Origin: an uncultured Candidatus Poseidoniales archaeon
Lineage (GTDB): Archaea > Thermoplasmatota > Poseidoniia > Poseidoniales > Thalassarchaeaceae
DNA: 32,421 nt
Direction: 5' to 3'
Assembly (NCBI GenBank): GCA_902573015.1
Contig: CACGIE010000015.1
Location: 1 to 32,421 of the forward strand
In this document: positions 23,771 to 32,160 of the stretch, piece by piece
How positions within the stretch are numbered: the first letter of the stretch is position 1
How the letters are laid out: each line of letters opens with the position of its first letter
Notes under the pieces: generated by a model
The model's input: only the letters and a program-made list of their open reading frames with translations
The model's database searches: none
What the model was told of the DNA's origin: nothing
Translations under genes and position numbers: made by a program

Positions 23771-25189
23771 GTGTCAGTGGTGAACTACGGATTCGTAATC
23801 AACAACCAGACTTGCATCGGATGCCACGCTTGCACGGTGGCATGCAAGTCAGAGCATGACGTGCCGATTGGCGTCAACAGGACCCACGTGAAGTACATCG
23901 AGAAAGGGACCTTTCCCGATTCAACTAGGGAGTTTAGCGTCCACAGGTGCAATCACTGCGAGGACTCTCCCTGCACGAAGATTTGCCCCACGACTGCCCT
24001 CTTCACCAGAAGTGACGGAATCGTGGACTTCGATGACGATCGTTGCATCGGTTGCAAGTCCTGCATGCAGGCATGCCCCTACGACGCCCTCTACATCGAT
24101 CCAGACAAGGGGACTGCAGCTAAGTGCAACTACTGCGCCCACAGGATAGAGCATTCCTACGAACCGGCATGCGTGATCGTCTGCCCCACGGAGTCGATAG
24201 TCTCCGGGGACCTCAGCGATCCGGAGTCTGCAATCTCTCAGCTAGTTGCCACTCACAACACCACCGTCAGGAAGCCCGAGTCTGGTGCAGAGCCCAATCT
24301 ATACTACATCGATGCTAGTGAGGAGATGCTTGACCCGAAGGCAACGGAGCTGACCGGTTCTGGGATGTGGACCGAGCAGGCATTCGGAGTCGGTCACTTC
24401 GCAAAGTACGCCGAGAGCAGGCTGGGAGAGGCAGATACCACCTCTATGATAGTTCAGCTGGCTCTAGAGAAGAAGGCGAGGAGCTCTGCTCCTCGTGACC
24501 AGGCCATAATCAAAGACGTAATGGAGAGGCTGGCTGACGAGTCGGGGTCGGCGAAGAGGAGCTATGACCAGCCTAGCAAGGGAGTCCTCTGGGGTTGGGA
24601 GGTCTCTGCCTACATCTGGACCAAGGGCATCGCTGCTGGTACGTATGTTGTCGCAATGCTTGCCATGCTATCGGGCATGGTGGAGATGAGTGACCAGCTC
24701 TGGGCCATGACCCTAGGCGTCGGCATAGTTTTCCTGGCGCTCACAGGGCTTCTCCTGGTAATCGACCTGGACAGGCCAGAGAGGTTCCTGTACGTCATGC
24801 TGAGGCCCAATTGGGACTCTTGGCTCGTCAAGGGCGCCTACGTACTCTCGGGCTACGGTGGCGTGCTTGCTCTCAGTACGGGAGTACTGCTCCTAGACCT
24901 GGATAGGTCTCTACTGAATTATCTGGCAATCGCCGGAGTCCCCCTGGCACTCCTAACCGGAGTATACACCGCTTGGCTACTGGGCCAGGCCAAAGCGAGG
25001 TCGTGGTCGGAAGACTCACTGCTTCCTGCCAAGTTTCTCGTGGAGACCCTAGTTATCGGGGCTGCGGTTTTCTTCCCCATGGCCCTCATGGACCCACTCG
25101 CAATCGTAGTCGGGTTAGCGATCCTAGCCGGAGTCCTCGTCCACGACAACAGGCTGGTAGTCAAGCCGCAGATGGAGCCGTTGCTGTGA
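23771..25189 (+). CDS. 4Fe-4S electron-transfer subunit fused to NrfD-type membrane subunit
   Basis: One polypeptide joins two subunits that are usually separate in PsrABC/DmsABC-type enzymes. Residues 1-170 resemble PsrB/NrfC/DmsB, with four cysteine groups for four 4Fe-4S clusters: CIGCHACTVAC (Cys15-25), CNHCEDSPCTKIC, CIGCKSCMQAC, and CNYC with a distant CVIVC. After a linker, residues about 275-472 hold six hydrophobic segments starting at WEVSAYIWTKGIAAGTYVV, an NrfD-type quinone-site domain; PsrC-like proteins usually have eight or more helices, so this one is short. No signal peptide is visible, so the iron-sulfur part should face the cytoplasm. The start is GTG at 23771 (further GTGs at 23777 and 23780 are possible). 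The catalytic subunit follows after 9 bp. Confidence 0.88.
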   Translation: MSVVNYGFVINNQTCIGCHACTVACKSEHDVPIGVNRTHVKYIEKGTFPDSTREFSVHRCNHCEDSPCTKICPTTALFTRSDGIVDFDDDRCIGCKSCMQACPYDALYIDPDKGTAAKCNYCAHRIEHSYEPACVIVCPTESIVSGDLSDPESAISQLVATHNTTVRKPESGAEPNLYYIDASEEMLDPKATELTGSGMWTEQAFGVGHFAKYAESRLGEADTTSMIVQLALEKKARSSAPRDQAIIKDVMERLADESGSAKRSYDQPSKGVLWGWEVSAYIWTKGIAAGTYVVAMLAMLSGMVEMSDQLWAMTLGVGIVFLALTGLLLVIDLDRPERFLYVMLRPNWDSWLVKGAYVLSGYGGVLALSTGVLLLDLDRSLLNYLAIAGVPLALLTGVYTAWLLGQAKARSWSEDSLLPAKFLVETLVIGAAVFFPMALMDPLAIVVGLAILAGVLVHDNRLVVKPQMEPLL

Positions 25190-25198
25190 GGTGTCCCA

Positions 25199-27925
25199 AT
25201 GGGTAAGACATTCATCGAGGACATGGCACAGCGGTTGAGGATAATCCCCAACCTGGACAGGGAGAAGTCCAGAGGGGCGAAGACGCCTCTGAAGTCCTTC
25301 CCTGAGCCCGAGGACTGGCACGATCACGTAGAGCTAGACGCTAACGAGTGGCCCAAGATGGTCGAGAAGCGCTACTCCCTAGTCCCGACGACATGCTTCA
25401 ACTGCGAGTCTGCATGCGGCCTTCTCGCCTACGTGGACAAGGACTCCGGGCAGGTCTCAAAATTCGAGGGGAACCCCCATCACCCCGGTAGCAGGGGTCG
25501 GAACTGCGCCAAAGGGCCTGCAACCATCAACCAGATCAACGACACTGAGAGGATCCTCCACCCGATGAAGAGGGTCGGCCCCAGGGGAGAGGGCGGTTGG
25601 GAGAGAGTTTCCTGGGACCAGGCCCTAGATGAGATCTCCACCAAGATCAGAGAGTCACTCAAGACCGGGGCCAAGGACAGGGTGGTCTACCACGTGGGAC
25701 GCCCGGGCCATGAGGGATACACCAACAGGATCCTGAAGGCATGGGGAGTTGATGGGCACAACAGCCACACAAACATCTGCTCTGCAGGGGCGAGGACGGG
25801 GTACGCTCTATGGCACCGCCATGACCGGCCCTCCCCCGATCACGCCAACGCCAAGGTGATTCTGCTAACCTCCTCTCACCTGGAGACTGGGCACTACTTC
25901 AATCCGCACGCCCAGAGGATTCTGGAGGGAATGATGGACGGTGCCAAGCTGGTCGTGATCGATCCCAGGCTTTCCAACACTGCGGCAATGGCAGACCACT
26001 GGGTCCCTACGTGGCCAGGATCGGAGTCAGCCCTTTTCCTCTCTTGGGCCAGCATGATCCTAGAGAGGGATCTGTACGACAGAGACTTTGTGGAGAACTG
26101 GGTCAACTGGGAGGAGTGGCTGCAGGCTGATTACCCAGATGAGGAGAGGTCCTTCGAGAGATTCATCGAACTGCTGAAGTCAGAGTACTCCGAGTATACC
26201 CCCGAGTTCGCAGCGAAGGAATGCAGGATACCTGTGGAGCAGGTCATAGAGGTTGGCGAATTAGTGGCAAATGCCGGTAGCCGTCTAGCCACCCACGTCT
26301 GGAGGGCGGCTGCTATAGGCAACCTCGGGGGGTGGCAGGTCAGCAGGACCCTGCACCTTCTGAACGTCCTGACTGGCAGCGTTGGAACCGAGGGGGGAAC
26401 TTCACCGAACTCCTGGTCCAAGTTCAAGCCCGAGCTGTTCGATGTGCCCCCAGACCCGGACGGCTGGAACGAGCTGCACTTCCCTCCCGAGTACACTCTC
26501 TCACACTACGAGATGAGTCACATACTGCCGCACCTGATCAAAGACGGGAGGGGCTCTATGGACGTCTACTTCACCAGGGTATTCAACCCGGTGTGGACCT
26601 ACCCTGACGGATTCTCCTGGATAGAGATGCTACAGAACGAGGATTCGGTGGGGTGCCACATCGCTCTGACTCCCACCTGGAACGAGACGGCCTTCTTCGC
26701 CGACTACGTCCTGCCCATGGGACATGCCTCGGAGAGGCACGACGTGAACTCCTATGCCACGAGCTCTGGCAAGTGGGTGGCCTTCAGGCAGCCTGTCCTT
26801 AGAGAGTACGCTCGCAGGGAGGGGAGGGAGGTAGAGTTCACCCACGAGGTCAATCCCGGCGAGGTCTGGGAGGAGGACGAGTTCTGGAACGAACTATCCT
26901 GGAGGATCGACGATGGCACCATGGGGATCAGGGAGCACTTCATGAGCCCCTACAGGGAGGGTGAGAGGATCACCATCGACGAGTACTACCAGTACATGTT
27001 CGAGAGGGTACCAGGCCTCCCCGAGGCTGCGGAGGCGGAGGGCACTGACGCCCTTGGTTACATGAGGAAGCACGGTGCATTCCAGATCGAGGAGGAGACC
27101 TACAACAAGCACGAGCAGGACGGCTGGCCGACCCCAAGCGGCAAGCAGGAGATATACTCCAAGAGTATGGTGGAGTTCGGCTATCCCGAGCACTCCATCC
27201 CCCACTACAGGGTGATGAGCCACGTCCATCCGGACAACCTGCAGGAGGAGGACGAGTACTGCCTCCTCCCCAACTTCAGACTCCCCCAGCACATCCATTC
27301 GAGATCGGCAAACGCCAAGTGGCTGGCAGAAATAGCCCACAGGAACCCCCTGTGGGTCCATCCCAGCGATGCGGCCAAGCTCGGGGTCGGGGAGGGCGAC
27401 CTCCTGAAGGTGGAGACCGAGATAGGCTGGTTCATCGACAAGGTCTGGGTCACAGAGGGCATTAAGCCCGGAATAATCGGCTGCTCGCACCACATCGGAA
27501 GATGGAGGAGGAAGCAGGACTCAGGGAACCGTTACATGACCAACGAGGTCGAGATCGAGGACTTGGGCGATGGTAAGATGAGGATGAGAACGGTATCCGG
27601 AGTGCGTCCCTGGGAGTCTGACGACCCCGACACCAACAGGGTCTGGTGGAGGGACGGGGGAGTGCATCAGAACATCACCCACGCCGTGCAGCCCGACCCC
27701 ATAAGCGGAGCCCACTGCTGGCTCCAGAAGGTCAGGATAACGAGACCGATGGATGGGGAGGAGTACGGAGATGTGGAGGTGGATACCAACAAGTCGTTCG
27801 AGTACTACAAGAGGTGGAACGAGATGGCAAAGGAGAACGAAGTCCACCCTCGAGGAGAGAGGAGACCGCTATGGATGAACAGGCCACTTCCGCCGAGGAA
27901 GGAGCACTGGTTCATTCGGAGATGA
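25199..27925 (+). CDS. molybdopterin oxidoreductase catalytic subunit, bis-MGD, no Tat signal
   Basis: The catalytic subunit of a DMSO-reductase-superfamily complex. The N-terminal 4Fe-4S site is CFNCESAC plus a later CAKG (Cys66, 69, 73, 103). NICSAGARTGY places Cys194 where the family's molybdenum ligand is expected. VIDPRLSNTAAMADHWVPTWPGSE is a typical MGD-binding stretch. The C-terminal molydopterin-binding domain begins near LLPNFRLPQHIHSRSANAKWL. No twin-arginine signal is seen (N-terminus MGKTFIEDMAQRL), so it should act in the cytoplasm. Substrate is unknown: formate, sulfur compounds, nitrogen oxides and arsenic species all occur in the superfamily. GAGGTG precedes the ATG. Its third codon positions are very G/C rich. 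The last 14 bases overlap the DUF2061 gene on the other strand. Confidence 0.92.
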   Translation: MGKTFIEDMAQRLRIIPNLDREKSRGAKTPLKSFPEPEDWHDHVELDANEWPKMVEKRYSLVPTTCFNCESACGLLAYVDKDSGQVSKFEGNPHHPGSRGRNCAKGPATINQINDTERILHPMKRVGPRGEGGWERVSWDQALDEISTKIRESLKTGAKDRVVYHVGRPGHEGYTNRILKAWGVDGHNSHTNICSAGARTGYALWHRHDRPSPDHANAKVILLTSSHLETGHYFNPHAQRILEGMMDGAKLVVIDPRLSNTAAMADHWVPTWPGSESALFLSWASMILERDLYDRDFVENWVNWEEWLQADYPDEERSFERFIELLKSEYSEYTPEFAAKECRIPVEQVIEVGELVANAGSRLATHVWRAAAIGNLGGWQVSRTLHLLNVLTGSVGTEGGTSPNSWSKFKPELFDVPPDPDGWNELHFPPEYTLSHYEMSHILPHLIKDGRGSMDVYFTRVFNPVWTYPDGFSWIEMLQNEDSVGCHIALTPTWNETAFFADYVLPMGHASERHDVNSYATSSGKWVAFRQPVLREYARREGREVEFTHEVNPGEVWEEDEFWNELSWRIDDGTMGIREHFMSPYREGERITIDEYYQYMFERVPGLPEAAEAEGTDALGYMRKHGAFQIEEETYNKHEQDGWPTPSGKQEIYSKSMVEFGYPEHSIPHYRVMSHVHPDNLQEEDEYCLLPNFRLPQHIHSRSANAKWLAEIAHRNPLWVHPSDAAKLGVGEGDLLKVETEIGWFIDKVWVTEGIKPGIIGCSHHIGRWRRKQDSGNRYMTNEVEIEDLGDGKMRMRTVSGVRPWESDDPDTNRVWWRDGGVHQNITHAVQPDPISGAHCWLQKVRITRPMDGEEYGDVEVDTNKSFEYYKRWNEMAKENEVHPRGERRPLWMNRPLPPRKEHWFIRR

Positions 27926-28151
27926 CCATGGGAGCGGGATCGGCTACGCCCCAGTCCACCGCTTCCCATAACCTCTCATGGAAGTAGTAGAACCCCATCT
28001 TCAACGGGAACTCAATTACGATGAACCATCCCGCCGTCTCTATCTCTCCTGTAAGGAGTCCTGCAACCGCCGCACCGGTCAAAGTTGCAATTATTCTCCA
28101 AGCGAATGTCTTCGCAAGGACTCGTTCTCTAGTGTACATTCCCATCGCCAT
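27912..28151 (-). CDS. DUF2061 membrane protein, single domain
   Basis: A 79-residue member of DUF2061, a small membrane protein family of unknown function. Its recognisable elements are RVLAKTFAWRIIATLTGAAVAGLLTG, FIVIEFPLKMGFYYFHERLWEAVDWG. Two hydrophobic helices can be seen (about 18-35 and 40-55), followed by the conserved YYFHERxW motif at the membrane edge. It is a diverged paralogue of the two-domain gene immediately upstream. Three possible starts exist (MAMGM); the first is at 28151. The final 14 bases overlap the 3' end of the molybdoenzyme gene. Confidence 0.85.
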   Translation of the reverse strand: MAMGMYTRERVLAKTFAWRIIATLTGAAVAGLLTGEIETAGWFIVIEFPLKMGFYYFHERLWEAVDWGVADPAPMVISE

Positions 28152-28264: not shown

Positions 28265-28759
28265 TCAGTGCGCCGGACTCACGTCTGGAGCATCCGGATC
28301 ATCTAGGCCCCAGTCCGATTTACTCCATGCCCTCTCGTGGAAGTAGTAGAGGATCATCTTCGTGATGACTTCGATTCCTCCGATTGCAAGGCCCTCCGTC
28401 CAGCTACCAGTAATGAACCTGGAAATAAGTATTGTATCGGTGGTTGCGATTCCCCTCCAGAGGAATGTCTTTGCTACGCTACGCTTCTTGTTAGCATGCC
28501 CCTCACCTGGCAATTTGTCCTCTTTCCCATCGACTTCTCCTAAGCCCCAGTCGGATGTGCTCCATGCCCTCTCATGGAAGTAGTAGAGTAGCATCTTCGT
28601 GAACACTTCGATAATGCCGATAGCTAGACCTTCTGTCCAACTTCCTGTAATTATCCTGGAGATAACTATTGTATCTGTGGTGGCGATTCCCCTCCAGAGG
28701 AATGTCTTCGCGAGACTGCGTTTCCGGTTAGCATGACCTCCGCCTGCTACAGTCGACAT
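28265..28759 (-). CDS. tandem-duplicated DUF2061 membrane protein (two domains)
   Basis: The 164 residues consist of two copies of a 66-residue DUF2061 unit, at residues 8-73 and 87-152, joined by the acidic/basic linker GEVDGKEDKLPGE. Each copy has the basic start HANRKRS or HANKKRS, KTFLWRGIATTDT, a hydrophobic pair of helices and YYFHERAWSxSDWGL. I count eight differences in 66 aligned positions (88 percent identity), so the duplication is recent or is kept similar by conversion or selection. The function of DUF2061 is unknown. The ATG at 28759 has no Shine-Dalgarno; an AT-rich stretch lies about 20-25 bp upstream. Confidence 0.88.
   Translation of the reverse strand: MSTVAGGGHANRKRSLAKTFLWRGIATTDTIVISRIITGSWTEGLAIGIIEVFTKMLLYYFHERAWSTSDWGLGEVDGKEDKLPGEGHANKKRSVAKTFLWRGIATTDTILISRFITGSWTEGLAIGGIEVITKMILYYFHERAWSKSDWGLDDPDAPDVSPAH
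28304..28501 (-). repeat. internal DUF2061 repeat, copy 2
   Basis: The C-terminal copy of the 198-bp coding repeat, residues 87-152 of the two-domain gene. Compared with copy 1 the protein changes are mostly conservative (L/V, V/L, I/F, F/I), plus I/G and T/K. Confidence 0.85.
28541..28738 (-). repeat. internal DUF2061 repeat, copy 1
   Basis: The N-terminal copy of the 198-bp coding repeat, residues 8-73. Long blocks are the same in both copies, for example the stretch coding for AKTFLWRGIATTDT and the one coding for TGSWTEGLAIG. Confidence 0.85.
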
Positions 28760-28812: not shown

Positions 28813-30045
28813 TCAGATAGACTCAATAACGACTGCGATTCCTTGTCCGCCACCGATACAGGCTGTTGCCACCCCGTACCTAGAACCGGTTTCTTTGAGT
28901 TGATGAGATAACGTGAGTACAAGTCTGGTACCGGTAGCTGCAAGCGGATGGCCGATGCCCACGGCACCGCCATTGACATTGACGATGTCATACGATATCC
29001 CGAGATCCTTGATGCAGGCTACTGCCTGTCCTGCGAAGGCTTCGTTTATCTCCCAAAGATCGATATCGGACACAGAAAGTCCTGCCTTCTCTATCGCCTT
29101 TAGGCTGGATGGGACCGGTCCGTATGCCATGATGCTCGGCTCCAGACCCACTACTCCCCAAGAGACGATTCTCGAAAGAGGCTCGTCTCCATCAGCCTCG
29201 GCCTTGGTTGCTGACTTGACTACCACTGCGGCAGCACCGTCCACGACCCCGGACGCATTTCCTGCTGTGACCAAGGATTGCGGACCGAAGTGAGTCCTGA
29301 GTCCTGATAGGGTCTCCATGGTGGTTCCAAGAACTACGTGATCCTCATGTGTGTGGTCGACAGTGCCATCGGCGGTTTCAACCGGTACGACCTCTTGTTC
29401 CCAGGTTCCTGATGAGACACTGGACTCTGTCCTCTGATGGCTCATTGCCGCGTACTCGTCTGCTTGCTCGCGTTCTACGCCCTTCCTTCTGCACAGCTCA
29501 TCGCTGGTTTGTGCCATGAACATGCCACTGACCCCGTCCACCAGGTTGGTGAACAGGTAGTCCTCCATGTCCTGTGCTAGCTCCTCTCCTGCCGAAGGGG
29601 GCCTCCCGAGCTTGTACGTGTCCCTCATACCCCTCAAGACGTGAGGTGCCTGGCTGAGGTTCTCCATTCCACCAGCCACCACTACATCGGCCTCCCCGAG
29701 CATTATCATCTGAGTTGCGCTGATGATTGACTGGGCTCCACTCCCGCAGAGCCTGTTCAGTGTGAGCATCGGGACTTCCTCGGGGATCCCCGATCTGAGA
29801 CCTGCGTGCCTAGCTCCGAAGATTGCTTGCCCGGAGGTCTGCAGGGCGTGACCCATCACCACGTGTTCCACACTGGTTGGGTCTGTTCCGGTCTTCTCCA
29901 TGGCACCCTTGATTGCTACTGTTCCGAGTTGCTCGGCTGAAACTGATGCTAATCGCCCGCCTGGTCCCCCATCTCCTCTCTTGCCTCCAAGCCACTCGCA
30001 GAAGGGCGTCCTCGCCCCACCTACGACAACCGCTCCCTCGGTCAT
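28813..30045 (-). CDS. thiolase family protein (acetyl-CoA acetyltransferase-like)
   Basis: A thiolase that either condenses two acetyl-CoA to acetoacetyl-CoA or cleaves 3-ketoacyl-CoA. The nucleophile is Cys100 in LNRLCGSGAQSI. His366 is in GGAVGIGHPLAATGTRL. Cys396 is in ACIGGGQGIA. WEINEAFAGQA carries the usual N-E-A-F oxyanion-loop motif. This is the canonical bacterial/mitochondrial-like form with all catalytic residues, unlike the archaeal mevalonate-pathway thiolases that work with a DUF35 partner. Length 410 is slightly above the usual 390. AAGGAAG precedes the ATG, which lies 17 bp after the flotillin-like gene. Beta-oxidation or synthesis direction cannot be decided from this window. 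Confidence 0.93.
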   Translation of the reverse strand: MTEGAVVVGGARTPFCEWLGGKRGDGGPGGRLASVSAEQLGTVAIKGAMEKTGTDPTSVEHVVMGHALQTSGQAIFGARHAGLRSGIPEEVPMLTLNRLCGSGAQSIISATQMIMLGEADVVVAGGMENLSQAPHVLRGMRDTYKLGRPPSAGEELAQDMEDYLFTNLVDGVSGMFMAQTSDELCRRKGVEREQADEYAAMSHQRTESSVSSGTWEQEVVPVETADGTVDHTHEDHVVLGTTMETLSGLRTHFGPQSLVTAGNASGVVDGAAAVVVKSATKAEADGDEPLSRIVSWGVVGLEPSIMAYGPVPSSLKAIEKAGLSVSDIDLWEINEAFAGQAVACIKDLGISYDIVNVNGGAVGIGHPLAATGTRLVLTLSHQLKETGSRYGVATACIGGGQGIAVVIESI

Positions 30046-31572: not shown

Positions 31573-32160
31573 TTAGATTCTCTTGACTACTAGGACCTCT
31601 CCGATTGTGTCTACAACTTCGATGAAGTCTCCCGTCGCGATCCCTGCCCCATCCTCGGACTTGGCGTTGAATGTCCTCTGCGCCTCGTTGACCTCGACGG
31701 TGACCTGTCCGACGCCCTCGTCCGTGATTCTGAGGTAGACCTGTCCCTTGGCCCCTATGGCCTCGGAAAGTTCCACCGTCCCATCCTGCTGAAGGTTGAC
31801 GAAAAGTTCGAACAGTTTGCCAGTGAAGTACATCGAAGCGCCACCGGCAATTGCTCCTGCCAAGATGGCTGGCGAAGGGCCTCCCCCGGACTTTGTCACG
31901 TAAAGCCCAGCTAGTCCGAAGAACATCAGGAATGCCATGATCCCCTGGAAAGTGAGAGCCTTGAACGATGCATCCGCACCCATGTCCACGTCTATTCCGA
32001 ATAGTCCGTCGAATATGTCCGTGGCAATTCCGCCTATCATCAGTAGGAAGAAGTACAGGACGAACAGGATGCCCCCTACCAAGGCACTTGCCGCGAACAG
32101 CATGTCAATTCCTGTAACATCCCCTAGCCCTACCAACTCGAACAAACTGAACTCGACCAT
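31573..32160 (-). CDS. NfeD-like membrane protein (YuaF type)
   Basis: A partner protein of flotillins. Three to four hydrophobic segments (about 20-48, 68-92 and 96-118) are followed by a C-terminal OB-fold domain (about 128-195) beginning SEAIGAKGQVYLRITDEGVGQVTVEVN and ending VVDTIGEVLVVKRI, the characteristic NfeD end. It lacks the N-terminal ClpP-like protease of long NfeD proteins, so it is the short NfeD1b/YuaF class. Length 195 fits. The ATG at 32160 has no Shine-Dalgarno; AAAAATTAG lies about 24 bp upstream. The 91-bp gap to the flotillin gene is longer than other intra-run gaps here. Confidence 0.88.
   Translation of the reverse strand: MVEFSLFELVGLGDVTGIDMLFAASALVGGILFVLYFFLLMIGGIATDIFDGLFGIDVDMGADASFKALTFQGIMAFLMFFGLAGLYVTKSGGGPSPAILAGAIAGGASMYFTGKLFELFVNLQQDGTVELSEAIGAKGQVYLRITDEGVGQVTVEVNEAQRTFNAKSEDGAGIATGDFIEVVDTIGEVLVVKRI

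Follow-up and report, generated by a model that had tools for sequence, protein, structure and literature searches.

The window, by which we mean the whole 32,421-nt stretch of Poseidoniales DNA analysed here, carries a reverse-strand gene whose 164-residue product scored 133.3 bits against the Pfam family PF09834 (DUF2061), in two stretches of a single open reading frame (Table 1). Taken alone, the two units scored 73.7 and 71.4 bits, each covering the whole 52-position model; the protein and both units lie above the curated cut-off of 23.1 bits. With scores of 71–74 bits for each unit, the similarity between them is far beyond chance. The initial annotation had described an in-frame duplication of two 66-residue DUF2061 units, 88% identical and separated by a charged 13-residue linker (EVDGKEDKLPGEG), and our analysis agreed on all of these points: 57 of 65 residues match between the units (nine differences if 66 positions are counted; range 86–88%). 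The eight differences between them are R12K, L16V, V32L, I36F, I49G, F53I, L57I and T68K.

In the window genome (63% complete), the only other DUF2061 gene found was the single-domain paralogue B, which overlaps the end of a convergent oxidoreductase gene by 14 bases. No NCBIfam name was matched by either DUF2061 gene of the window. The thiolase gene upstream of DUF2061 is kept in nearly all archaeal loci compared, and archaeal DUF2061 genes have neighbours that encode a thiolase, a flotillin-like protein and a molybdopterin oxidoreductase. Within the window, positions 23771–27925 (+) encode an Fe-S/NrfD fusion protein, as well as a thiosulfate/tetrathionate/DMSO reductase-type molybdopterin oxidoreductase; neither reaches any NCBIfam cut-off. 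A 195-residue predicted membrane protein with no Pfam match (31573–32160, −) adjoins a flotillin-like gene, a layout that suggests an NfeD-like partner.

Table 1. Positions of DUF2061 genes and associated features, in the window and in bacterial loci (locus labels L are ours).
Feature	Location	Positions	Strand	Details
Two-domain DUF2061 gene	window	28265..28759	-	164 aa; ATG start; ORF and Pfam PF09834
N-terminal DUF2061 unit, residues 9-74	window	28538..28735	-	AlphaFold2 helices 12-38, 41-68
13-residue charged linker EVDGKEDKLPGEG, residues 75-87	window	28499..28537	-	low AlphaFold2 confidence
C-terminal DUF2061 unit, residues 88-153	window	28301..28498	-	AlphaFold2 helices 91-117, 120-147
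Single-domain DUF2061 paralogue B, 79 aa	window	27912..28151	-	Pfam PF09834, 57.8 bits; second-copy clade 100/96
Acetyl-CoA C-acyltransferase (thiolase), upstream neighbour	window	28813..30045	-	Pfam and NCBIfam; near-universal synteny among archaeal loci
CysN (sulfate adenylyltransferase large subunit)-DUF2061 fusion	L126	3953-5566		
CysN-DUF2061 fusion	L193	157-1842		
CysN-DUF2061 fusion	L194	1459-3090		
CysN-DUF2061 fusion	L195	1279-3111		
DUF2061 at N-terminus of APS kinase (CysC)	L122	3468-4187	-	Bacteroidota genome
Two DUF2061 units and inositol-phosphatase-family (CysQ-like) domain	L090	5926-7212	+	

Age of the fusion

A search of related genomes for one- and two-domain forms, as the initial annotation had proposed, found that seven other species of the window's genus (G001, G002, G009, G012, G022, G026 and G027) carry the fused gene at this locus, and that 16 congeners, of the 24 with the gene, have a single-unit form. 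Linker length is identical in seven of the eight fused genes and one residue shorter in G027. The fused contigs come from separate assemblies, including the isolates AG-422-I20, AG-457-A01 and AH-287-M04, which are single-cell genomes by their naming. Because the same fusion appears in independent assemblies, an assembly-made duplication, which the initial annotation had raised as a possible objection, is ruled out.

Rates between the two copies were also compared, as proposed. Their 63-codon cores share 81.5% of nucleotides, with dN = 0.07, dS of about 1 to 1.1 and dN/dS of about 0.07. Among 52 identical residues other than Met and Trp, 21 are encoded by a different codon and 31 by the same codon, against 19.4 of 52 expected at saturation. 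Thus, the dN, the dS and the excess of shared codons indicate that the duplication is old and unsaturated, and that the likeness of the two protein halves has been held by selection. Between the window gene and that of G009, nucleotide identity is higher for like units (N-N 0.86, C-C 0.85) than for unlike ones (N-C 0.77). In the tree, the C units of the eight species form one clade (100/99); the best tree leaves their N units ungrouped, but a clade of N units is not rejected (p-AU = 0.24). Forcing the window's own N and C units together costs 19 log units (p-AU = 0.054).

The initial annotation had called the duplication recent, and a recent event private to the window genome would fit the 88% amino acid identity of the halves and a p-AU just short of rejection at 0.05. 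However, a synonymous divergence near 1, the same-locus fused genes with near-identical linkers in seven other species and the strongly supported C clade make such an event so improbable that we consider it ruled out, by dS and by the orthologous fused genes above all. Rather, the duplication is old, and eight or more species of this Marine Group II genus have it in common. In the history that we favor, a single-domain DUF2061 gene 3′ of the thiolase gene was the ancestral state; an in-frame duplication occurred in the ancestor of these species (Poseidoniales, Thalassarchaeaceae-like), and strong purifying selection has since maintained both halves of the fused gene. Across 55 aligned two-domain proteins, K18, W22, R23, T30, E51, K55, H62, E63, R64 and W66 are invariant in unit 1, as are K97, R102, T109, E130, K134, H141, E142 and W145 in unit 2, so neither half is decaying. 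The same invariant positions thus recur from one half to the other.

Tandem DUF2061 genes in other lineages

Tandem DUF2061 fusion recurs, and the single-domain form remains the majority. When genomes were drawn evenly, and genes were counted as two-domain if two matches fell within one open frame, 50 of 59 Pseudomonadota genes and 21 of 23 Bacteroidota genes had a single domain. In the window's genus, 16 of 24 genes did. Most DUF2061 proteins are therefore single-domain, as first annotated, and the accompanying worry that relatives might mostly be two-domain already was unfounded, two-domain genes being a minority in every group counted. The implied novelty of the architecture did not hold up: about 56 distinct two-domain ORFs, from several phyla, were present among the loci retrieved, with examples in Flavobacteriales, Gammaproteobacteria and Alphaproteobacteria, and outside archaea most of the closest matches were two-domain genes. 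In a domain tree built on few columns and with rough supports, the archaeal, Flavobacteriales and gammaproteobacterial pairs and one alphaproteobacterial set group apart. Archaeal single-domain genes nest inside the archaeal group, which places the origin of the archaeal fusion within archaea. The gammaproteobacterial type (L113–L118) is a divergent subfamily with the motif KTxTFAxxHF and without cys genes nearby.

A further fusion was found in UBA220 (L039, 5971–6462), the sole two-unit member of a genus in which 12 of 13 genomes are single-domain. Its units share 94% of their nucleotides (dS = 0.16), and judging from these sequences the UBA220 fusion is apparently a separate and truly recent event. 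A single origin for every archaeal fusion, this one included, without homogenisation, was rejected (p-AU = 0.0015 for a clade of all C units). The single unit of a relative, UBA86 (L041, 5971–6246), shares 4 of 10 informative sites with the UBA220 N unit and 6 with the C unit. The two kinds of site are interleaved, a hint that recombination caused collapse or exchange. Such a mosaic could also be read as the trace of one old duplication whose halves underwent partial homogenisation through gene conversion and now and then collapsed to one unit; in keeping with that, the window's own N and C units are 87% identical in amino acids, compared with 71–83% in the seven sister species. We consider this reading unlikely, as the single-domain majority in UBA220's genus favors a separate duplication there, and the dS near 1 between the halves of the window gene allows for little conversion in recent times. 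Since the doubling is old, common to several species and repeated in other microbes, the window gene represents an unremarkable form within a family that is poorly understood, and its duplication alone is of modest interest.

Predicted topology of the fused protein

The initial annotation had supposed two helices per unit, and an AlphaFold2 model of the fused protein (mean pLDDT 82.6, pTM 0.76) bears this out. No relatives were found in the PDB by sequence, nor by fold (best E 2.3). Pfam describes PF09834 as a predicted membrane protein; the helices are 27–28 residues long and paired by short uncharged turns. The helices are of low hydropathy for transmembrane segments (best 19-mers 0.8–1.25 on the Kyte-Doolittle scale), a consequence of the conserved R, D, E and K residues inside them. 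These in-helix charges and the fusions of DUF2061 to soluble Cys enzymes would suit an amphipathic helical protein, soluble or peripheral, in which fusion merely fixes a helical bundle, but the Pfam description and the length and pairing of the helices speak against it, and we think it quite unlikely. The product is probably a small four-helix protein, for which membrane insertion is predicted.

If the helices span the membrane, two helices per unit place both units in the same orientation. DUF2061 is fused to the C-terminus of CysN and to the N-termini of CysC and of a CysQ-like domain, all cytosolic enzymes, which fits with both ends of the unit lying inside, as do the positively charged start of the chain and the uncharged hairpin turns. 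Each unit would then be a helical hairpin with both ends in the cytoplasm, and two hairpins in the same orientation would let one chain do the job of two single-domain chains elsewhere. The parallel, tied-together dimer that the initial annotation suggested is a plausible proposal, strengthened by recurrence, since tandem fusions that arise independently, again and again, are evidence from nature that a minimal two-helix unit works as a same-orientation pair. Taken as a whole, an old in-frame duplication that produced a small four-helix membrane protein with parallel hairpins, one chain standing in for two, is in our judgment a likely explanation of the window gene.

Sulfate-activation genes and comparison with known systems

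The best functional lead for DUF2061 comes from the association of the family with sulfate-activation genes in bacteria. The canonical subfamily occurs in an operon, cysQ-DUF2061x2-cysC-cysD-cysN, at about 30 Flavobacteriales-like loci, and a further operon type reads cysK/metZ-DUF2061-cysH-cysD-cysN-sir. Of the evenly drawn loci, 15 of the 22 from Bacteroidota and 2 of the 54 from Pseudomonadota had cys genes no more than about 4 kb from DUF2061; a different DUF2061 subfamily dominates in Pseudomonadota. In one alphaproteobacterial family, four or more genomes encode CysN with a C-terminal DUF2061. As a lead, then, bacterial DUF2061 may assist sulfate activation or the handling of PAPS from the membrane, serving as an anchor or in oxyanion passage, and its joining to three different sulfate-activation enzymes makes a role for the family testable. 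In published studies, DUF2061 receives single mentions: as one of the iron-responsive genes of Caulobacter (PMC3751524), as a gene in Shewanella work on iron regulation (PMC12442407) and, in a Pseudomonas study of polymyxin, as a putative membrane protein (PMC12632274). None of these assigns it a function.

For the window gene, the sulfate role is a family-level lead and not a result. No CysD was found in the 28 genomes of the window's genus that were searched, and no cys gene adjoins DUF2061 in the archaeal loci compared; thus, the lead may not carry over to archaea. An association of DUF2061 with sulfate genes within archaea was rejected: APS-kinase-family genes are common in the window's genus (found in 18 genomes) but lay elsewhere in the one region inspected, ATP sulfurylase (PF01747) was absent from the 96 genomes searched, and co-occurrence of DUF2061 with sulfate genes across genera is only partial. 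In that region (L213, 3930–5716), the APS-kinase-family gene follows a CysQ-like gene, away from DUF2061 and with neither CysD nor CysN nearby. A locus from another genus (L214) carries CysQ-CysD-CysNC in a similar setting. MGIIb genomes have been reported with CysD, CysN and CysC and MGIIa genomes without them, and known sulfate transporters went undetected in MGIIa MAGs (PMC6864105). A part for the archaeal protein in sulfate activation or PAPS handling is thus a guess, and a doubtful one. We give an equally low chance to a broader scheme, in which DUF2061 hairpins would form an unrecognised membrane part of sulfate activation, working as a parallel dimer that passes sulfate to CysDN and CysC or holds them at the membrane; the tandem arrangement and the CysN, CysC and CysQ-like fusions would fix this assembly, and Marine Group II archaea would put it to a related oxyanion or sulfur use.

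Among known systems, the SMR transporters offer a general analogy, as small membrane units that occur singly and paired or fused. They differ in that the two helices per DUF2061 unit imply parallel rather than inverted units. In comparison with single-domain members of PF09834, each unit of the window protein likewise matches the whole model, but its chain holds two units where most members have one. Finally, the two-domain proteins of Flavobacteriales share the two-unit layout and the conserved residues, mostly at 42–52% identity to the window protein, but by the domain tree their fusion had a separate origin, and they are encoded in sulfate-activation operons, unlike the archaeal gene.
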